IMG/VR virus record: IMGVR_UViG_3300025853_000472
Location: 1 to 29,312 of that record
From: a virus
Length of the DNA stretch: 29,312 nucleotides
Direction: 5' to 3' (one strand)
Shown here piece by piece: positions 3,393 to 28,593 of the stretch; position 1 is the first letter of the stretch, and each line of letters starts with the position of its first letter. Position numbers and translations under genes: made by a program. Under the pieces are notes generated by a model. The model saw only the letters and a list, made by a program, of their open reading frames with translations, had not been told where the DNA came from and searched no databases.

Positions 3393-3619
3393 ATGTTGTA
3401 CTTGTCCAAATCGTGGTGGATCATGAGCCAGTTAATGCGGCGTGCCACTTCCAGGAACGCGGCCCGGTCCCGGGCGGTGTCGGCGTCCTGGCTCCTGGCC
3501 AACACCCACTCACTCAAATCGTGGATCACCGCATAGAAGGACAGCCCGTTCTCGAAAAACTCGTGCGCCCCGGCGTCGTTCTCCGTGTCGAATTCGTACG
3601 TGATCTTCATGGTCGTCAT
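3377..3619 (-). CDS. Hypothetical phage protein, ~80 aa
   Basis: The protein reads MTTMKITYEFDTENDAGAHE at its start and then ENGLSFYAVIHDLSEWVLAR. This pattern, a short beta strand followed by an acidic tail and a helix with a (D/E)xWL motif, recurs in small phage replication-region proteins of unknown function. A frame-matched ATG at 3631 exists, but I prefer 3619 because it overlaps the stop of the upstream replication gene as ATGA. The end overlaps the next nuclease gene by 16 nt. No catalytic motif is visible. Confidence 0.6.
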   Translation of the reverse strand: MTTMKITYEFDTENDAGAHEFFENGLSFYAVIHDLSEWVLARSQDADTARDRAAFLEVARRINWLMIHHDLDKYNICDDE

Positions 3620-4584
3620 TTTCTGATCCATAACTTCTTACCCCTCTCGTCCTCACCGCCGATCTCGAACGCTGTCTGTGGTACTCCCTCCTTCGACATG
3701 ATCGCAAGCATCTCGTTATAAGTAAGTAGGAAACCGTCGCCTCCTCCACCCGGAGACCCGCGCCGGGCCGTCGTGCCCTTGCGTATGCTGACAACGTCCT
3801 CGACCCTCCGCTTGTACAGGCCGATCAGATCGACCACGTTGGTCGGCTTGTAGCCGGCGGCCAGCCATTCAGCACAGACGGCCCGCCAAAGTTCGAGCTT
3901 ATCGCCCTCGATCCTGGCGGCGTTGATCAAATCCGCGTAGTAGTGGTGGATCGACGATTGTCGCAACTCCCGGAGGTAGACTTGAACGGGCTCTGAATGC
4001 GAAGCATTGATCGAACCAGCGGCGTCCGCCCGGTGCGCGTGGTCGTGATCCCTTTTTTGAATTTCCTTTTCTTTACTTTCCTTTTCTTTCCTTTCCTTTC
4101 CTTTTCTTGCTTGAGTATCGCTTAGGTCGGACTGAGGCCCAGCTTGACTGGGACTTAAACCTGACTTCGGTCCAGCCGAAGCGGGACCGGGCGGTAGCTT
4201 GATCTGTACTTTGCCAGAATTGGACTCAGACCTTAGCCGGGCCGCCGCTCCCTTCTTGCCAGCTTCCGATCTGCGCTTGCGGCGAGCGTCGATGGCCGAC
4301 ATACGCCTCGACAGCGCTGGAGACCAGAACGACTCGTCGTCGTTGTCGAACAGGCCGTAGCGCGAGACGACCGCTTTGATCTTCTCCTCGGTCGTGTTGT
4401 ACCTCCTGGCCAACGCCCTCAACAACCGCACCGGTGCCTGGTAGTCCGGCTGGTCACGGAGCGTCTCGATCAGCACCCAATAAATCCCGTATCCTTCCAG
4501 GCCCAACTCCTCGATCACATCGATGATCTTAGGGTCGTCCTTGGCGTTCGAGTCATGCGGGAAGTAGTAGGCGTCCTTCGTCAT
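3616..4584 (-). CDS. DUF4373 (Lin1244/Lin1753-type) replication organizer-like protein
   Basis: The first ~95 residues match the DUF4373 domain. AYYFPHDSNAKDDPKIIDVI leads to LGLEGYGIYWVLIETLRDQP, RALARRY and a YGLFDNDDESFWSPALSRRM block. This winged-helix-like domain occurs in phage replisome organizer and DnaD-like proteins that open the origin and help load the helicase. Residues ~100-185 are low complexity, rich in Arg/Lys, Ser, Pro and then Lys-Glu repeats encoded by a purine tract. The C-terminal ~110 residues are helical (SIHHYYADLINAARIEG), ending in a Gly-rich segment. The length (322 aa) suits an initiator with a linker. It lies beside the Rad52-like and nuclease genes. The function is inferred from the domain. 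Confidence 0.75.
   Translation of the reverse strand: MTKDAYYFPHDSNAKDDPKIIDVIEELGLEGYGIYWVLIETLRDQPDYQAPVRLLRALARRYNTTEEKIKAVVSRYGLFDNDDESFWSPALSRRMSAIDARRKRRSEAGKKGAAARLRSESNSGKVQIKLPPGPASAGPKSGLSPSQAGPQSDLSDTQARKGKERKEKESKEKEIQKRDHDHAHRADAAGSINASHSEPVQVYLRELRQSSIHHYYADLINAARIEGDKLELWRAVCAEWLAAGYKPTNVVDLIGLYKRRVEDVVSIRKGTTARRGSPGGGGDGFLLTYNEMLAIMSKEGVPQTAFEIGGEDERGKKLWIRK
4063..4108 (+). repeat. Polypyrimidine microsatellite inside the replication gene
   Basis: The plus strand is an almost pure C/T tract with one interrupting A, built from TTTCC, TTTTC and TTTAC units (for example TTTCCTTTCCTTTCC). On the coding strand it is an AAAGG-type purine repeat encoding the Lys-Glu-rich linker. Just downstream on the plus strand lie several AGTC/GACT-containing short words (4119-4185). 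A repetitive segment in the middle of an initiator gene recalls lambdoid phages, whose origin lies within gene O. An origin here is inference only. Confidence 0.5.
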
Positions 4585-4885: not shown

Positions 4886-5131
4886 TCACGAAATACGCTT
4901 TCCGTTCCTCGGAGATATATAGGCGTCGTAGCGGCTCCCGATCTTGCGACCTTCGTACTCCTCAAACGCCCTCAAAAAATGCTTGAAAGCCAGGGACCAT
5001 CTCATGTGGTCTACCTCTGCTGTGGTGGTCCTCACCCGCCAGCCCGGGTAGATTCGGTATAGATGGATCGGCCCGTGCTTGGCGATCATGGTCGGAGGTC
5101 GTCGCGACTTCTTTGCGTCTTGTGTCTTCAT
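4886..5131 (-). CDS. Hypothetical basic protein, ~81 aa
   Basis: The protein starts MKTQDAKKSRRPPTMIAKHG and is rich in Lys and Arg at both ends. It has an aromatic middle (LYRIYPGWRVR) and a helix (LAFKHFLRAFEEYEG), ending KIGSRYDAYISPRNGKR. No family is recognised. The ATG at 5131 lies 2 nt after the stop of the Rad52-like gene; an in-frame TTG at 5137 is less likely. The position between an annealing protein and a replication organizer, together with its basic charge, suggests nucleic acid binding, but this is inference. Confidence 0.55.
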   Translation of the reverse strand: MKTQDAKKSRRPPTMIAKHGPIHLYRIYPGWRVRTTTAEVDHMRWSLAFKHFLRAFEEYEGRKIGSRYDAYISPRNGKRIS

Positions 5132-5133
5132 GG

Positions 5134-5817
5134 TCAAAATGGTAGATTATCTGTGGGACCGTCTTGTCCCGGATGGTGTGATGGTCCCGCCTCTGCACCC
5201 AGGGACTCCAGCCTCTGCTGGTCCTTTCCGCTGATACGGTACTCGGCGTGTAGTTGGTTCAGTGTGATCTCGCCAGCCTTGACTCTACGACAGATCTCCT
5301 CTCCGAGAGTCGTCATCTTGCCCTTGCGATCCGTGATGTTCAGCCAGGGTAGGCCGGCATTCGCCGCCGGAGATCCGCCGGATGGTCTGCTCCGGTCCTG
5401 TATCGCTGGGCCGCGAGCGCTTGGCGTGCTGGGCCGACCCGTAGGTGCCTTGCCTTTCCAAACATCGGCCCCGATGCCGAGGAATGAACCGATCTTGGTC
5501 AGAGCGTCCGTCATCGCGCCCTTATAGGCGTCGCCACGGTCGTCGTTGTCGTTACCGCCATAAGCCTCGAGTTTGACCATATCGGCACCGTCTACTGGCG
5601 AATAGGCCCAAAAATGGACCTTCAATACGACCATCTTACTCGAGTTCTCTATGATCTCGGAAGTGGTCCCCCATCTTCCCACGCCGAACACGTCGTTGAG
5701 CCTCTCCGTGACATAGATGGAATTGATGGTTGACAGAAAGTTCTTGCTGGGATGAGGCTTGATCGCCTCCGCCGGAAGCGGGGCGTCAAGCAACTCCCTC
5801 ATCTGCTGTGCTGTCAT
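5134..5817 (-). CDS. Rad52/Rad22-like single-strand annealing protein
   Basis: The N-terminal ~125 residues carry Rad52-family features. These include SKNFLSTINSIYVTERLNDV with FGVGRWG, the strand VVLKVHFWAYS, and the GDAYKGAMTDALTKIGSFLG block, which is the most diagnostic part of phage Rad52-type annealing proteins. A disordered Pro/Ser/Gly linker (residues ~122-160) leads to a small C-terminal helical segment. The last residues, DNLPF, resemble the acidic C-terminal tip of SSB proteins. The protein probably promotes strand annealing in phage recombination. It starts on an ATGA overlap with the upstream small gene. A Gam- or Erf-like alternative is less consistent with the YKGAMTDALTK motif. 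Confidence 0.8.
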   Translation of the reverse strand: MTAQQMRELLDAPLPAEAIKPHPSKNFLSTINSIYVTERLNDVFGVGRWGTTSEIIENSSKMVVLKVHFWAYSPVDGADMVKLEAYGGNDNDDRGDAYKGAMTDALTKIGSFLGIGADVWKGKAPTGRPSTPSARGPAIQDRSRPSGGSPAANAGLPWLNITDRKGKMTTLGEEICRRVKAGEITLNQLHAEYRISGKDQQRLESLGAEAGPSHHPGQDGPTDNLPF

Positions 5818-5954
5818 GATACGTAGTAGATAGTCGAGTTGGTGATGTCGTCAAAGACCACGCGGACCACGTGTCGTCCCAGTTCCTCGAAATGATTCAG
5901 AATCTCGGAGATCTGCTCGTGTGGTGTGCTGTACTTGAAACGTAGCTTTATCAT
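5814..5954 (-). CDS. Small hypothetical protein, 46 aa
   Basis: The gene encodes MIKLRFKYSTPHEQISEILN followed by HFEELGRHVVRVVFDD and a beta-strand tail (NSTIYYVS). The alternating strand-helix-strand pattern suggests a tiny folded alpha/beta domain. The start at 5954 lies 1 nt after the upstream stop (TAAGATG). Its end overlaps the Rad52-like start by 4 nt. A longer in-frame form would lie inside the upstream gene and is not favoured. The tight coupling on both sides makes the gene credible; the function is unknown. Confidence 0.6.
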   Translation of the reverse strand: MIKLRFKYSTPHEQISEILNHFEELGRHVVRVVFDDITNSTIYYVS

Positions 5955-5955
5955 C

Positions 5956-6366
5956 TTAGTAGGGTAGATAGTCTCGAAAATCAGCCAGGATAATGGCGTA
6001 CTCCGCCTCCAGGACGTCATTGTCTCGCGAACTGCTGAAATGAACGTGGAGTGGTGGCATGGCGCACCGGGCCATCACGAAATCCAGCGTTCGCTCCTTG
6101 GCGTGAATTAGAGCCAAGGCCGCATTATAGAGTGACTCGACTGCCTCATCGTGCGACGCTACGTGCTGGTACTCGATCCCTCCTGGGAGCGGATTCATCG
6201 GCCGATAGCCTCGAGCCAGGCACATATCCGGAGCCTTTTGTACGACTGCAATCAGATCAGTTATGTCCTTGGCAAGACGGGCGAGATCCTGTCTGATCGG
6301 GTGAACTACTCCCTCTGCGCTATATAGCGCGCGTAGGCTGGCGATTTCCTCCTTCGATAGAATCAT
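5956..6366 (-). CDS. Hypothetical protein, 136 aa
   Basis: The protein begins MILSKEEIASLRALYSAEGV and continues with helices (IRQDLARLAKDITDLIAVVQ). A central loop contains ARGYRPMNPLPGGIEY, and the C-terminal half (EAVESLYNAALALIHAKERT) is helical again. No family or catalytic motif is recognised. I place the start at the ATG at 6366 because ATGAGGT provides a Shine-Dalgarno-like GAGG about 7 nt upstream; the ATG at 6378 would add four residues. It is the first gene after the DatZ-like gene, and its leader carries a CACCTAAA sequence resembling the leaders of the small-gene train. Confidence 0.6.
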   Translation of the reverse strand: MILSKEEIASLRALYSAEGVVHPIRQDLARLAKDITDLIAVVQKAPDMCLARGYRPMNPLPGGIEYQHVASHDEAVESLYNAALALIHAKERTLDFVMARCAMPPLHVHFSSSRDNDVLEAEYAIILADFRDYLPY

Positions 6367-6433
6367 GATATACCTCATATTTAGGTGGTTGTGGTGGCGT
6401 AATTGCCTACCATAAAATACGAAAGACGAGCCC

Positions 6434-7108
6434 CTAGGACAAGTCCTTCACAGAGCCTTCACGCTCCATGGCGATCGCTCCAAGGACTGGGTCTGTCAAC
6501 CTGGACGGACGTTCTATGTCGTCGATATGGTTCCAGACCGCGCTCGAGACAACACGATAGGCCTGGTCTGAGAAAACCTTGCGTACCCGGTCAAGTCGAG
6601 GTCCCATGTGCTTCTTTAACGAGTCATATACGAACCTGACCTCCTGGACGCCGTTGTACTTCAATTCACCAAGAAACGTTATGGCATCCAGCAAATCGGC
6701 GATCTTGACGATACATAAGGCCCGCATTTGGTCGGCCTCACCGTGCAAACGCTCCTGGTGCTGTTGTCGGTACCACGCGTGCTCTCGTCCCATCGCCTCG
6801 TCGATCACCGACTCGTCCACCCGGGCCGCCTTTTTGAACGGCGTCGGGATGTCGCCGCTGAATCGCTCGCCGATGTCGTGCCAAAGGGCCTCGCGTACAG
6901 CGTATTGGTGCTCGTCAGGATCTAGGCCCACCAGCGAGCCCAGCCAGTCCGTGTATAGAGCGACGAAGTACGAGTGCTCCGCGACCGACTGCTGGCGATA
7001 CGTGCGAATGATCGCCCAGCGAGGAATTTGTGCTATGTCTCGTACCTCGCGTTCCAAGTATGGATATCCGATTGTCTTATTCATGGGTCTGTTTGTGTTG
7101 TTGTTCAT
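6434..7108 (-). CDS. datZ: HD-domain dATP triphosphohydrolase DatZ-like
   Basis: The protein has a YfbR/HD-type phosphohydrolase core. With the ATG at 7108, R30-W31 (QIPRWAII) precedes RQQSVAEHSYFVALY with metal ligand H45. Next come ALWHDIGERFSGD with H77, D78 and E81, and CIVKIADLLDAI with D138. This H...HD...D order, with RW before it, is that of YfbR-like enzymes. Phage DatZ belongs to this group and removes triphosphate from dATP. An ATG at 7084 is an alternative start and is also preceded by no clear Shine-Dalgarno. The gene overlaps mazZ by 32 nt (or 8 nt). Adjacent PurZ and MazZ make the dATP role likely; a general 5'-nucleotidase is the alternative. Confidence 0.85.
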   Translation of the reverse strand: MNNNTNRPMNKTIGYPYLEREVRDIAQIPRWAIIRTYRQQSVAEHSYFVALYTDWLGSLVGLDPDEHQYAVREALWHDIGERFSGDIPTPFKKAARVDESVIDEAMGREHAWYRQQHQERLHGEADQMRALCIVKIADLLDAITFLGELKYNGVQEVRFVYDSLKKHMGPRLDRVRKVFSDQAYRVVSSAVWNHIDDIERPSRLTDPVLGAIAMEREGSVKDLS

Positions 7109-7376
7109 AGGTCTGTGCCAGGATCATCGCGAAGTTCGCGACGTCGGCGGCTTCCTTCCACACGTCCTCCGGTACTCCTTCACGCTGAATCTCTTCGAAC
7201 AGCTCGATCGCCTCTTGCATTAAGCGTTTGAAAGCGTACATGGGCTCCACGTCCTCCCACTTGCCCTTGTGTATGTTCTCGGCCAGCTTGGCCATCTGAA
7301 CCCGGGACAACGCCAGGACGGACTCGTGGTACTCCTCCAGGAGCTGTCGCTTCTCTTTGTACTCGCGTACGTTCAT
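7077..7376 (-). CDS. mazZ: MazG-like nucleotide pyrophosphohydrolase (MazZ)
   Basis: This 99-residue all-alpha protein carries the MazG-family magnesium motif ExxE-(16)-ExxD: E55-A-I-E58 with extra E61/E62, then E75-A-A-D78. The helical context (YAFKRLMQEAIELFEEIQR and WKEAADVANFAMILAQ) fits a dimeric all-alpha NTP pyrophosphohydrolase. In Z-genome phages the MazZ member converts dGTP to dGMP (also acting on GTP), supplying the substrate of PurZ. The ATG overlaps the purZ stop codon (TAATG), so purZ and mazZ are translationally coupled. The clustering, rather than any unique residue, identifies it as MazZ. Confidence 0.82.
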   Translation of the reverse strand: MNVREYKEKRQLLEEYHESVLALSRVQMAKLAENIHKGKWEDVEPMYAFKRLMQEAIELFEEIQREGVPEDVWKEAADVANFAMILAQTYEQQHKQTHE

Positions 7377-8416
7377 TAGATTACCTTCGTGTTTAGATAT
7401 CGTCGTACGTCCTTGACCGAGGGCCCGTAGCCAATGAGGTCCGGGATCTTGATCTCGCTCATCACGCGTGCCAGTTCGCGTAGCTCATTGTCGTACATAT
7501 AATTCCCGAAATTGAGGAACACGTAGTCCGGGCGGACGAGATGATACGCGTACTTGTACTGCTCGAACGAGAACGTGGCCACGCGCCGCACCCGCTTCGT
7601 CACGGTCGTTAGCTCCGGCGATACGCCGATGTCCTCCCAGGAGAGCTCGTCGCTGTCTGGGTAGAATGGACCGCTATGGCCGATCATCTCGCCGCTCTCA
7701 TCGTACACGTGGCCCACCCGGATCGGATAGGTCCGCACCGACATATAAACGTCCCCGAGATAGTAAGGATGGAGCTGGGCGTCCGACAGGGCCTGGCTCA
7801 CGCTGATCTCACGACTCGTGACAAACGGATAGAAACCGCTGTTCACGCCCAGGCCCACGCCCTGTGGTACCTCCATCAATGCGGGCCGCTTCCCGATCTT
7901 GCGTAGCTCATCCCGTAGGTCCAGCGCCGCGATCTTGAATCCATGCTGTTTCAAAATGCGGGACTCCTTAGCTACGTTTCCTCTCCTTGTAATTTTGGCC
8001 GACAGCGACGCACCGGTGCCTTTCATGGTTGAACCATGCTTTGCATAGGATGTCGCGATCTTCTCCTCCCGTCTATGCTCGTCCTCAACGACGGCGGCGT
8101 GTGGATGGATGACCACACGTGTGGGGTCGACGTCGTACTGCGCGCACTCCGAAATCAGCACGAGCGGATCTATGATAGACCCGGCCGTGAGATAGACCGG
8201 CGGTTCCGACCGCGTGCACAGCGCGCTACTCGGGATATGATAGGTGACCATCTTACCCCGGCTGTCGGCGTAATCGACGGTATGTCCGCTGTTGGGCCCG
8301 GCGTTTGTCACGCATAGTCCCAGCGGATCTTCGTATCGGGTAGCCAAGTAGCCTCCGAGGAGGCCCTTGCCCGTGCTCCCGAACTGACCGTCAATAATGA
8401 TATCTAGCTTTTGCAT
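7376..8416 (-). CDS. purZ: PurZ, 2-aminoadenylosuccinate (dSMP) synthase
   Basis: The 346-residue protein is an adenylosuccinate-synthetase homologue, shorter than cellular PurA (~430 aa), as expected for phage PurZ. The GTPase-like start is IIIDGQFGSTGKGL. PurA has a catalytic Asp in GDEGKG at this position; here it is S14, the substitution known in PurZ enzymes that lets dGMP replace IMP. Further conserved blocks are TNAGPNSGHTV, YHIPSS, AGSIIDPLVL, KHGSTMKGTGASLSAK and VPQGVGLGVNSGFYPFVTSR. PurZ joins aspartate to dGMP, and host PurB then releases dZMP. I chose the ATG at 8416 because AAGGAG lies about 8 nt upstream; longer in-frame extensions lie inside the preceding gene. Confidence 0.95.
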   Translation of the reverse strand: MQKLDIIIDGQFGSTGKGLLGGYLATRYEDPLGLCVTNAGPNSGHTVDYADSRGKMVTYHIPSSALCTRSEPPVYLTAGSIIDPLVLISECAQYDVDPTRVVIHPHAAVVEDEHRREEKIATSYAKHGSTMKGTGASLSAKITRRGNVAKESRILKQHGFKIAALDLRDELRKIGKRPALMEVPQGVGLGVNSGFYPFVTSREISVSQALSDAQLHPYYLGDVYMSVRTYPIRVGHVYDESGEMIGHSGPFYPDSDELSWEDIGVSPELTTVTKRVRRVATFSFEQYKYAYHLVRPDYVFLNFGNYMYDNELRELARVMSEIKIPDLIGYGPSVKDVRRYLNTKVI

Positions 8417-8420
8417 AGAA

Positions 8421-8705
8421 TTACTCCTTGTCTTTGTTACGAATATGGTCGGCGACCAGCGTCGCATAGCCAGCGATGTCGACCCAATTATCCAAGATGT
8501 CCGGATCTCCGGCCGTGATCCTGGCCAGCTTCGTCGCGATCATCTCGAACGCTTCTAAATGGACCAAATGCTCGGGTGATCGATCGATGGTCGACCCTCT
8601 CGTCGTAGATTTTATGATCTGGGCTCGTCGCGCCAGACGGCTGAACGATCCATAATCCGATCCTCGCGAGTCGAGCAGATCCTTGAGTGTGTCTTTCTTG
8701 TTCAT
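8421..8705 (-). CDS. DUF6378-like protein, possible MazG relative, 94 aa
   Basis: The protein carries the pattern of phage DUF6378 proteins. An N-terminal SRGSDYGSFSRLARRAQIIK is followed by a helix with HLVHLEAFEMIATKLARI and the closing NWVDIAGYATLVADHI. The (E)A.EMIA.KL.R...GDPD..DNW.DIAGYA.L signature resembles helical MazG-like folds. The exact metal motif differs from MazZ, so the activity is uncertain. A strong AGGAGG (plus-strand CCTCCT at 8709-8714) precedes the ATG by ~4 nt. The gene directly precedes purZ with a 4-nt gap, so it likely belongs to the nucleotide-metabolism operon. Confidence 0.72.
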   Translation of the reverse strand: MNKKDTLKDLLDSRGSDYGSFSRLARRAQIIKSTTRGSTIDRSPEHLVHLEAFEMIATKLARITAGDPDILDNWVDIAGYATLVADHIRNKDKE

Positions 8706-8724
8706 GATCCTCCTGTGTTTGAGT

Positions 8725-8772
8725 AAAAAGGCGGAGGCCCGCCTATTGCGGCGGGAAAAACGGCGGACCTCC
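8725..8772 (-). terminator. Rho-independent terminator of the small-gene train
   Basis: On the minus strand GGAGGTCCGCC and GGCGGGCCTCC form an outer stem, and an alternative inner stem CCCGCC-GCAATA-GGCGGG is also possible. The structure is followed by GCC and then TTTTT (plus-strand AAAAA at 8725-8729). It sits between the end of the 8816-9163 gene and the strong ribosome-binding site of the DUF6378-like gene. It would separate the small-gene train from the Z cluster. Confidence 0.8.
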
Positions 8773-9163: not shown

Positions 9164-9200
9164 GGTATTTTCCGTTTAGGTGGTGAAATGGTGGGTTTGT

Positions 9201-9271
9201 CCCCGTTTCTAATGAAAAGATAAGCATTGAGATATATATTGCGCAATATTCTTCACAAAAGCTTCACAGAA
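9201..9271 (-). promoter_or_regulatory. Promoter-like block P1
   Basis: On the minus strand a conserved upstream box GTGAAG...TTGTGAAGAATATTGCGC is followed by 18 variable bases and then TATCTT (plus-strand AAGATA at 9217-9222), followed by TTCATTAGAAACGGGG. The -35-like TTGCGC is at 9241-9246. The same boxes at the same spacing recur at P2, P3 and P4, which is the pattern expected of a promoter. TGTGAAG direct repeats upstream may bind a regulator. Confidence 0.65.
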
Positions 9272-9278
9272 GATATAA

Positions 9279-9841: not shown

Positions 9842-9879
9842 TGTCGTTACCGTTTAGGTGGATCGGTGGTGGGGTCTCT

Positions 9880-9949
9880 CCCCGTTTCTAATGAAAAGAT
9901 ACGAATCGGAACCTATGTTGCACAATATTCTTCACAAACGCTTCACAGA
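9880..9949 (-). promoter_or_regulatory. Promoter-like block P2
   Basis: The block has TTGTGC (plus-strand GCACAA at 9920-9925), 18 bases, then TATCTT (9896-9901), with the upstream TGTGAAGCGTTTGTGAAG and downstream TTCATTAGAAACGGGG shared with P1. The upstream gene's TGA stop (9943-9945) is part of the first GTGAAG repeat, so gene end and promoter overlap. Confidence 0.65.
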
Positions 9950-10323
9950 CGAATCATCATGGCCGTCTCCGCTCTGCAAGATCCGGCGGGCAATAGGCCG
10001 ATCTCCTTGTCCTGTCTCCAGGCCCATCCCACGCCAGCATTCTTAAAATCGCCAGTCATATCGTCCAAAGGACGGGTTCGCAAAAATGGGTCGTCGTTCT
10101 CTATCTGCTTAAAATGCAAGGACGAGCACAAGAGATTCGGAACGGGCTCCACTACGTCCGACCCAGGCCGACGCCATATCAAGGTAACGTACTCCTTGTT
10201 CTTAGACATTAGGAAGTAGAGCTCCTTATCGCCCTCGCCTACTCGGGTCCACAGCTTCTTGATCTCGGCGGCGACTTTGACGACGTGTCGGTCGCGGTTC
10301 TTGAAAAAGTAGAAATCTGCCAT
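9943..10323 (-). CDS. Hypothetical protein, 126 aa (small-gene train)
   Basis: The protein starts MADFYFFKNRDRHVVKVAAE and has a strand (KELYFLMSKNKEYVTLIW) followed by a basic turn, then LLCSSLHFKQIENDDPFLRT. The C-terminal part (DFKNAGVGWAWRQDKEIGLL) is aromatic. The composition suits a small soluble alpha/beta protein. Its leader reads ATCTAAACGGACAATACA before the ATG, without a Shine-Dalgarno. It follows a hairpin rather than a promoter block. The stop lies within block P2. The function is unknown. Confidence 0.6.
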   Translation of the reverse strand: MADFYFFKNRDRHVVKVAAEIKKLWTRVGEGDKELYFLMSKNKEYVTLIWRRPGSDVVEPVPNLLCSSLHFKQIENDDPFLRTRPLDDMTGDFKNAGVGWAWRQDKEIGLLPAGSCRAETAMMIRL

Positions 10324-10611: not shown

Positions 10612-10650
10612 GGCGTACCTCGTGGGTCTGGTGGTGATGGTGGGGTCAAT

Positions 10651-10721
10651 CCCCGTTTCTATTGAAAAGATACGAACGACGATAGGTATCGCACAATATC
10701 CTTCACAAACGCTTCACAGAA
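10651..10721 (-). promoter_or_regulatory. Promoter-like block P3
   Basis: TTGTGC (plus-strand GCACAA at 10691-10696), 18 bases, TATCTT (10667-10672). Upstream TGTGAAGCGTTTGTGAAG and downstream AGAAACGGGG match the other blocks, while the spacer sequence is different. It lies just after the stop of the 10724-10969 gene and before the 10396-10611 gene. Confidence 0.65.
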
Positions 10722-10723
10722 GC

Positions 10724-11577: not shown

Positions 11578-11614
11578 TGTGGTGTCCGTTTGGGTGGTAA
11601 GTGGTGGGGCGTGT

Positions 11615-11683
11615 CCCCGTTCTGATAGAAAGATAAGCATTCCGGATTATATGGCACAATATTCTTCACAAACGCTTCACAGG
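11615..11683 (-). promoter_or_regulatory. Promoter-like block P4
   Basis: TTGTGC (plus-strand GCACAA at 11654-11659), 18 bases, TATCTT (11630-11635). It is flanked upstream by TGTGAAGCGTTTGTGAAG and downstream by a slightly diverged TCTATCAGAACGGGG. It is the most upstream block of the train and follows the decayed phosphoesterase gene. Confidence 0.65.
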
Positions 11684-11938
11684 AGCAGCACTATGCGTTG
11701 TATGCCTTGACCGTGAGACCCTCCGCCCTTCCGGGCCTTCCCTCCGCCCAGCACATATCTATCCACACGCCGCCCAGGGCCGCTGGTCCATGTGCTTTGC
11801 GAGAAGACGCCGGTCGCACTCCGGACTGTCGAAATGGACGTCGGAGAGAACCAGCAAGGAGAAGACGCTGTCCTTTGTCGGCTGGTGACTCTTGACCCGG
11901 TGTACAGATGGGTGCAACTGCTCGACGAGCCAGTTCAT
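11677..11938 (-). pseudogene. Decayed metallophosphoesterase (internal deletion and frameshift)
   Basis: The frame from the ATG at 11938, which overlaps the holin stop as ATGA, encodes 59 residues. They include DSVFSLLVLSDVHFDSPECD and RRLLAKHMDQ, a typical calcineurin-like phosphoesterase start with the first metal motif D-x-H (SDVHF). The frame stops at 11759-11761. The +1 frame then reads DRYVLGGGKARKGG and GIQRIVLLL, ending at a TGA inside the GTGAAG repeat of block P4. That is exactly where a neighbouring gene also ends its frame at P2. I read this as N- and C-terminal remnants of a much longer enzyme joined by an out-of-frame deletion. The C-terminal assignment is inference. The short N-terminal peptide might still be made. 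Confidence 0.5.
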
Positions 11939-13248: not shown

Positions 13249-13343
13249 CTTGGGGTCTCCTTTGACTTCCCTCGCACGCGAGACTGCTCACCGGGCCTAG
13301 CACAGCGGCGAAAGCCCACGTGCAAAGGAAGACAAAAGAAAAC
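13246..13343 (-). repeat. Inverted-repeat element, copy B
   Basis: It is read on the minus strand in the same sense as copy A on the plus strand. The arms are TTTTGTCTTCCTTTGCACG and CGTGCGAGGGAAGTCAAAGG, and the core carries TGTGCTAGGCCCGG as in A. The identical 27-nt run occupies 13249-13275. It is placed between the glycosyltransferase gene and the lysozyme. The right arm ends in the AAAGGAG used by the 19-residue ORF. Confidence 0.7.
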
Positions 13344-13361
13344 GCAACGGTGTTTGATGGC

Positions 13362-27297: not shown

Positions 27298-28593
27298 CTA
27301 TACGATAAAATAGTGGTTCTTCGAGCCCGGATAGTGACGCGAGAAAAAGTACCACAACGCATACCTGGCCGTGTCTGCGTCGTGCGTGCGAACCGCCTCG
27401 GCCTTGTAGTCTTGTGTCTTGTCCAGATCTCCGTATTTGTCCAGCTTGGCCGCGTTCAGAGATCGAACCACGTGCTTCTCGTCCCGGTCAAAGAACACGA
27501 GCCCCTTGCCCAGCGCCCAATTGACGCATTGAACCGTGTCCTTCACGAGCGGGTTTGAATCTGGGACTTGGAACCGGAGCATTGCACCATATGAATCATA
27601 GAAGATGTCGCGGACGCCCTTCCACATAGAATCTGTCGAAATCGCCGTCCTGTTAGACCCGCTGGCGTCCCCAATTAAAATACAAAGACCCCGGTGAGAT
27701 CGCAACTCCTGGACCAGCGACCGTGCGTTGTCATACACCGTCGGTTCGCTTAATTGCCAGGACCTCACGCACGCCACAATCGGGTGAGCCGTTTCGGCCA
27801 GGCCGATCTCTTGCCATCCGCTGACTGCACAGTACTCGACGTTGAAGTCCCACGACAGGATCAACGGTTTGTTCGGGTCGTATGGCTGGGCGACCACCGC
27901 CTCTCCTGGAATCTGGAACGCGCCCGTTCCTCCGATCGACACCCGCGCTCCGTCGAGATATCGTCGTAACTGCGAGCCGCTGTACGTGCTCCGGAGGATC
28001 TGCGTATAGGAATCGACGAACGACCCGTCCGGGTTGGCGTCCAGGCCGACTTCGAAGATCTGCCCCCGTCCCGCCTCGCACAGACCGTCCGCCATGCGAT
28101 AGATGAACGCGTCGGGCTCGTCCGGCATTGAAGTGATACGAATCAATCGCGGCCCCTTGCGTATCCTGGAAACGAACGTGCGTAGGCTCTCGTGCTTGTA
28201 ATAGCTGGCCTCGTCCGCCCATCCCCAATCATATTCTATCGATTCGATCCTCTTGATGACCTCCGCGTCGGACGATCTGAGATGAACCAGGGCCCCGTTG
28301 TTGAAGACCAGGTTCATCGCTACGCCCGGGCCGTCGTACACGTAGCCAAACTCCTTTAATAATGGCTCCAGGCTCTGAACGAAAATATCTCGCACTTGTG
28401 AGTAGCTGTTCAGCAGAATCAAGCCCTTGCGGCCTTGCTCGATCTGCGATAGCGCGAAGTGCGCACCCACGAACGTCTTGCCCGATCCTTTCCCGCCGAA
28501 CACGCACACGACGCGGTTGGATTCCCGCATGAACGCCGATTGATAGCCCTTGAACCGGACCACCCGTGTTTCGGCATGATCGACCGTGCCCAT
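27298..28593 (-). CDS. Terminase large subunit, 431 aa
   Basis: The ATPase domain has Walker A GGKGSGKT (G33-T40) and Walker B-like YDWGWADEA (D127, E128). The C-terminal RNase H-like nuclease has its acidic residues at LILSWDFNV (D249), ILIGDASG (D309) and HDADTARYAL (D405/D407). The order of ATPase then nuclease and the length match tailed-phage large terminases that translocate and cut concatemeric DNA. It precedes the portal gene. The small subunit candidate is in a different region of the genome. Confidence 0.93.
   Translation of the reverse strand: MGTVDHAETRVVRFKGYQSAFMRESNRVVCVFGGKGSGKTFVGAHFALSQIEQGRKGLILLNSYSQVRDIFVQSLEPLLKEFGYVYDGPGVAMNLVFNNGALVHLRSSDAEVIKRIESIEYDWGWADEASYYKHESLRTFVSRIRKGPRLIRITSMPDEPDAFIYRMADGLCEAGRGQIFEVGLDANPDGSFVDSYTQILRSTYSGSQLRRYLDGARVSIGGTGAFQIPGEAVVAQPYDPNKPLILSWDFNVEYCAVSGWQEIGLAETAHPIVACVRSWQLSEPTVYDNARSLVQELRSHRGLCILIGDASGSNRTAISTDSMWKGVRDIFYDSYGAMLRFQVPDSNPLVKDTVQCVNWALGKGLVFFDRDEKHVVRSLNAAKLDKYGDLDKTQDYKAEAVRTHDADTARYALWYFFSRHYPGSKNHYFIV

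Follow-up and report, generated by a model that had tools for sequence, protein, structure and literature searches.

Phages that replace adenine by 2-aminoadenine (Z) rely on three known enzymes, which supply dGMP (MazZ), synthesize the precursor of dZMP (PurZ) and remove dATP (DatZ) (PMC8342488, PMC12884076). In bacteria (E. coli), the Z-cluster replaces about 4% of chromosomal and 12–23% of plasmid adenine (PMC8342488), and the polymerase of phage S-2L makes no selection between A and Z (PMC8065100). Two further proteins, DUF5664 (PF18909) and DutZ, have been assayed and are diphosphohydrolases that convert dATP, dGTP and dUTP to monophosphates (PMC12884076). These two, from the Z-phages Wayne and Ghobes, would hold the same place in the pathway that we propose below for DUF6378 (PF19905), a family with no described function.

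The window analysed here is a whole IMG/VR record of 29,312 bp without end repeats. It has the same three enzymes, gene order and key residues as the Z-clusters of S-2L and phiVC8, and its MazZ is of the phiVC8 type (MazZ-2). Unlike those clusters, it has no PolA polymerase beside the cluster. A DUF6378-like gene directly precedes purZ in the window, whereas the corresponding gene lies past datZ in phiVC8, ZP6, Bm1 and BUCT555 and elsewhere in the genome in S-2L. The nearest isolate, Ochrobactrum phage vB_OspP_OH (OH; MT028492), has a PurZ 42–44% identical to that of the window and, like the window, MazZ-2, DatZ and a previously unrecognised DUF6378 gene, p31, separated from the purZ that follows it by 2 bp; it encodes a PolA polymerase and a protein with a primase-polymerase domain, whereas the record analysed here encodes a DnaD-like initiator but no polymerase. 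The three-gene part of this locus is a new member of an already known cluster, and DUF6378 as a fourth gene is the new part.

The purZ, mazZ and datZ genes and the gene ahead of them

The four genes form a tight tandem on the minus strand, 8705-6434, in the order DUF6378-purZ-mazZ-datZ; the tight or overlapping arrangement, the ORF coordinates and the catalytic residues named in the preliminary description are all present. First in the run is the DUF6378-like gene (8421..8705, 94 aa), assigned from PF19905, a family alignment, a structural model and its adjacency to purZ, with a full AGGAGG ribosome-binding site (8709..8714, minus strand) only 3 nt upstream of its ATG. After its stop, a 4-bp gap leads to the ATG of purZ (7376..8416, minus strand; succino-2-aminodeoxyadenylate synthase, 346 aa). 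The purZ ribosome-binding site, AAGGAG (8424..8429, minus strand), is 7 nt upstream of the purZ start codon and is embedded in the final two sense codons of DUF6378, so that translation of purZ is likely coupled to that of DUF6378. The purZ stop and the start of mazZ (7077..7376, minus strand; MazZ-2 type, MazG-like dGTP diphosphohydrolase, 99 aa) have TAATG in common, a 1-nt overlap, and mazZ overlaps datZ (6434..7108, minus strand; HD-domain dATP triphosphohydrolase, 224 aa) by 32 bp. Stem-loops occupy the stretch between the upstream gene and DUF6378 (8729..8772, minus strand; z = -3.6 against shuffles), and the one at 8744-8729 is terminator-like, so that the transcription unit very likely opens with DUF6378.

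No tRNA or Rfam family was detected in the window. An intergenic repeat of 81–100 bp, present in four copies that are 74–100% alike (9193-9273, 9872-9952, 10643-10723 and 11606-11686), sits between small ORFs and may represent promoter or operator repeats. A second pair of about 100 bp, 80% alike and unrelated to the four-copy repeat, lies far apart at 1107-1206 and 13249-13347.

Translated from the ATG at 8416, PurZ begins MQKLDIIIDGQFGSTGKG. Serine 14 had been noticed in place of the PurA catalytic Asp (Asp13, GxxGK motif), and the substitution holds across the family, S14-T15-G16-K17-G18 being invariant in 10 PurZ proteins. Among solved structures, those of S-2L PurZ (PDB 7odx) and phiVC8 PurZ come closest; Ser14 and Thr270 of the window correspond to Ser23 and Thr273 of the S-2L enzyme. 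NCBIfam NF038379 matches the protein at 6e-63 and 212.8 bits, ahead of every PurA model. This score does not reach the curated 300-bit cut-off, which is a naming threshold rather than a biochemical feature and appears simply to be narrow, because OH PurZ (241 bits) and the PurZ of environmental contigs in this clade (216–225 bits) also fall short. In a 79-row PurZ tree, the window falls in a 57-row clade (support 99/98) composed mostly of environmental contigs together with phage OH; this clade is contained in a 73-row branch (support 98/91) and is separate from phiVC8, S-2L and SH-Ab 15497 and from the PurZ0 group.

The survey of PurZ loci also brought up unusual forms. At L021, a DUF6378 gene is immediately followed by a 477-aa ORF (4977-6410) that is hit by the PurZ profile and the MazZ profile alike and is likely a PurZ-MazZ fusion. 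PurZ-like genes of the window's subclade occur on bacterial MAG contigs as well (L307 and L308, one of 994 kb) and may be either proviral or cellular; the assemblies, of 1.6–1.8 Mb, are without DatZ and DUF6378.

The MazG-like gene is weak on its own (Pfam MazG, 0.0034, under the cut-off). By phmmer, its relatives are the MazZ-2 proteins OH p33 (1.6e-9), ZP6 gp22 (2e-7) and phiVC8 p26 (4e-5), and it has both the ExxE...E/DxxE/D metal site and the gene position between purZ and datZ that characterize MazZ-2. The ExxE-16-ExxD motif recognised at the outset maps to E55xxE58-16-E75xxD78, and all four acidic residues are invariant in 8 MazZ proteins. Arg83 of S-2L has no clear counterpart in the window MazZ, in a C-terminal region where the alignment is poor.

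DatZ matches the PHROG dATP triphosphohydrolase family phrog_7076 at 4.3e-20, and its closest PDB entry is S-2L DatZ (6zpa). The HD-domain residues picked out earlier, H45, H77-D78 and D138, are invariant in 10 DatZ proteins. For the S-2L enzyme, the metal ligands and the dATP-specificity residues R19, W20, I22, P79, K81 and K116 have been described, and the isoleucine (S-2L I22, window Ile33) is the residue that excludes 2-amino purines (PMC8065100). Window residues R30, W31, I33, H45 and H77 correspond to S-2L R19, W20, I22, H34 and H66, and D78, P90, K92, K135 and D138 to D67, P79, K81, K116 and D119, so that all ten aligned metal-, phosphate-, sugar- and base-contact residues are identical. 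In its PurZ residues, its DatZ determinants, its MazZ-2 relatives and its gene order, the locus is consistent with published Z-phages (PMC8342488, PMC8065100), and the purZ/mazZ/datZ cluster first read from this sequence is almost certainly a real Z-cluster.

Association of DUF6378 with purZ and exchange with DUF5664

We scanned profiles of the four proteins over 80 IMG/VR PurZ contigs (the best 80 of 386 by similarity to the window), nine isolates and the window. A first DUF6378 profile missed OH and several environmental loci; an iterated profile recovered them with motifs intact. Of the 89 loci in this set of best-80-of-386 contigs, isolates and window, a copy of the window's contig left out, 59 have a DUF6378-like ORF close to purZ. 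After redundancy was removed from the PurZ rows at 85% PurZ identity, and with a few PurZ loci from bacterial assemblies added, 40 of 72 have DUF6378, against one of 120 control loci (1.05 Mb) retrieved by a PolA DNA-polymerase motif (Fisher p ~3e-20, uncorrected for relatedness). These 72 rows leave out the window, loci retrieved via DUF6378 itself and the PurZ0 phages, and S-2L is scored positive.

In many positive lineages the gene touches the purZ start, often with a gap of -25 to +4 bp (2 bp in OH); phiVC8, BUCT555, Bm1, ZP6 and a set of further contigs have it on the far side of datZ, 1.2–3.3 kb past purZ. At least five changes on the PurZ tree are needed to account for the upstream state and at least four for the downstream state, so the link between DUF6378 and purZ is not a single inherited accident. 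The isolates that carry DUF6378 are phiVC8, ZP6, Bm1, BUCT555, OH and cyanophage S-2L (L318 / MW334946.1), where an unannotated 92-aa ORF (7325-7600, plus strand) runs antisense to the annotated S2L_16. A link between DUF6378 and Z-DNA did not appear in the open-access literature searched, nor did an assay of any DUF6378 protein; the three papers there that name the family do not, by their titles and abstracts, deal with Z-DNA, and a 2026 survey of Z-phage nucleotide enzymes makes no mention of DUF6378.

Some loci that lack DUF6378 carry DUF5664 instead. Across 100 PurZ loci, 60 have DUF6378 only, 15 have DUF5664 only, none has both and 25, including some truncated contigs, have neither. Among non-redundant rows, DUF6378 is found in 43 and DUF5664 in 14 of 78, with none shared (p ~2e-6 if rows are taken as independent, without correction for the tree). 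In eight loci (L024, L030, L053, L054, L057, L059, L067 and L068), DUF5664 stands directly ahead of purZ, in the slot of DUF6378. Well-supported sister pairs differ in just this gene, both in the slot ahead of purZ (L059 with DUF5664, L065 with DUF6378) and in the slot past datZ (L037 with DUF5664, L028 with DUF6378). Each of the three PurZ0 phages has a dUTPase-family gene (PF00692), and so do five of six large PurZ records without DatZ, but such a gene is rare alongside DUF6378 (1 of 26 records) or DUF5664 (1 of 12). These six large records, of 67–287 kb (L031, L041, L044, L050, L051 and L055), have a PurZ of the window's subclade and no DatZ in the whole record.

Because these genes displace one another, DUF6378 is most simply read as taking over the work of DUF5664 and DutZ; this reading does not come from sequence, as DUF5664, though often found in the same gene slot, has no detectable sequence similarity to DUF6378. 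Homology of DUF6378 to MazG/MazZ or to DUF5664 was considered and rejected, with hhalign probabilities under 1% even with deeper alignments.

We considered whether DUF6378 is instead a general replication-module gene, brought near purZ by the clustering of nucleotide and replication genes and with no special role in Z-DNA. Many phages without purZ do carry DUF6378, in many cases beside exonuclease, helicase and DNA polymerase genes, and purZ is present in only 5 of 80 contigs retrieved by DUF6378 alone. Against this, it occurs in only the single PolA-bearing control locus noted above as opposed to more than half of the PurZ rows. Further, it abuts purZ or lies just past datZ, with several gains or losses on the PurZ tree, and it and DUF5664 strictly exclude each other from the slot they share. 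We consider this explanation unlikely, though it is the strongest of the alternatives, and DUF6378 is probably a working member of the Z-cluster. The co-location survey, in which the association recurs in independent lineages, and the DUF5664 exclusion together give strong support to the preliminary description, which had proposed the gene as an undescribed fourth member of the operon and suggested that its neighbourhood in other Z-phages be surveyed.

Among the contigs without purZ, no single functional hint emerged from the neighbours of DUF6378. In five of them (L119, L121, L162, L176 and L194), a MazG-like ORF adjoins or overlaps the gene, hinting at a general pairing.

Sequence and fold of the DUF6378-like protein

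The window protein matches PF19905 at E=1.2e-6 and 29.1 bits, above the gathering cut-off of 27.1 bits. In an 85-row family alignment, G19, K59, R62, G66, D72, D76, G79 and Y80 are invariant and R14 nearly so, and the window protein has all of the invariant residues; K59, R62, D72 and D76 are also invariant across all 59 Z-locus members. An apparent difference at W74 between Z and non-Z members was set aside, the non-Z set having been retrieved with a pattern that demands W.

An AlphaFold model (pLDDT 93) has four helices, at residues 3-18, 21-36, 44-65 and 71-93. Going by the order of the helices, the polar residues that are conserved would gather at one end of the four-helix bundle, as might be expected if they bind a substrate or a metal. 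Neither sequence nor fold searches of the PDB gave a convincing match to DUF6378. In BFVD, the best Foldseek matches are DUF6378 proteins, one of them named 'nucleotide modification associated domain 1', and lower matches include DUF6378-like folds within viral HAD/PNKP-type phosphatase proteins (A0A9E7RZL9, A0A514A8Q3 and A0A482MGX6), which would fit a role as a nucleotide hydrolase. A model of DUF5664 likewise contains long helices, three in number; the first closes with YG, the next carries RH close to its end and the last opens with His. Among PDB entries this model most resembles a small helical protein (2p06; Z 7.8, 77 residues, 3.4 A), and MazG-related chains rank lower (Z 4.2–4.6), scores that are within reach of unrelated helical proteins.

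A small, helical protein could also act without catalysis, as a partner or regulator of PurZ, MazZ or the polymerase, for instance, and such a role would sit well with the likely coupling of the purZ start to DUF6378 translation and with the position of DUF6378 directly after a MazG-like gene in some non-Z contigs. Conservation of R, K, R, D, D and Y in 85 diverse members is more like that of a substrate or metal site, however, and the genes that replace DUF6378 in the same slot encode proven enzymes; a partner or regulator is, in our judgement, somewhat less probable still than a general replication-module gene. The prediction that DUF6378 is a dNTP diphosphohydrolase stands at even odds or slightly below. 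We put forward more tentatively that it is a third such enzyme, unrelated in sequence to DUF5664, that has been swapped with DUF5664 in place and with DutZ in function.

A proposed route to Z-DNA

The gene content suggests that the virion DNA contains Z. By homology, MazZ would convert dGTP to dGMP, PurZ would join dGMP and aspartate into the succinyl precursor of dZMP, and host PurB and kinases would complete dZTP, while DatZ would degrade dATP to deoxyadenosine. DUF6378 may convert dATP, and probably also dUTP and dGTP, to monophosphates, keeping dATP out of the phage DNA and filling the role held in other Z-phages by DUF5664 or the dUTPase-like DutZ. Its catalytic site would be the cluster of invariant R14, Y/H18-G19, K59, R62, D72, D76 and Y80.

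Polymerization would probably fall to a host polymerase or to one encoded outside the record. The DpoZ that the preliminary description envisaged elsewhere in the genome did not come to light, no PolA-type polymerase (PF00476 match) being present in the 29.3-kb record, which is possibly incomplete. A second, near-identical contig examined for sequence beyond the window (IMGVR_UViG_3300006916_000464) lies wholly inside it (432-22214, 99.9%) and added no polymerase. Because the small (1894-2256) and large (27298-28593) terminase genes are near opposite contig ends, the missing stretch may be short. The replication genes found include the DnaD-like initiator (3616-4584) and a weak match to an annealing protein (5134-5817). 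If the record is near complete, the phage may copy Z-DNA with the host polymerase, relying on control of the nucleotide pool in much the way that S-2L does with its non-selective polymerase (PMC8065100).

It is very improbable that the product of the PurZ-like enzyme is ordinary adenylosuccinate or some other compound and that virion adenine is normal. The score of 213 bits against the 300-bit NCBIfam cut-off and the lack of a DpoZ in the record would fit such a reading, as would a literature search that turned up no Z-DNA measurement for this PurZ clade and a term search of the paper on OH, the only isolate found in the clade, that turned up neither 2-aminoadenine nor diaminopurine. Against it, Ser14 and Thr270 are as in S-2L PurZ, MazZ-2 is present, the co-encoded DatZ retains the Ile33 that spares 2-amino purines, and OH and environmental PurZ of the clade, at 216–241 bits, show the cut-off to be narrow.

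We slightly favor the full reading of the locus as a compact four-gene operon that replaces adenine by 2-aminoadenine, with DUF6378 as a second dNTP diphosphohydrolase. Since DUF6378 and DUF5664 replace each other in place, one simple assay could test the proposed activity. If it is confirmed, DUF6378 would be a component overlooked in all model Z-phages that have one, including S-2L, and its absence could help to explain why the three-gene S-2L cluster replaces A by Z only partially in E. coli. The Z-cluster has hitherto been described as three genes, and a widely conserved fourth would be a direct candidate for a missing activity; a role in Z-DNA would also give a function to a phage family that has none described.
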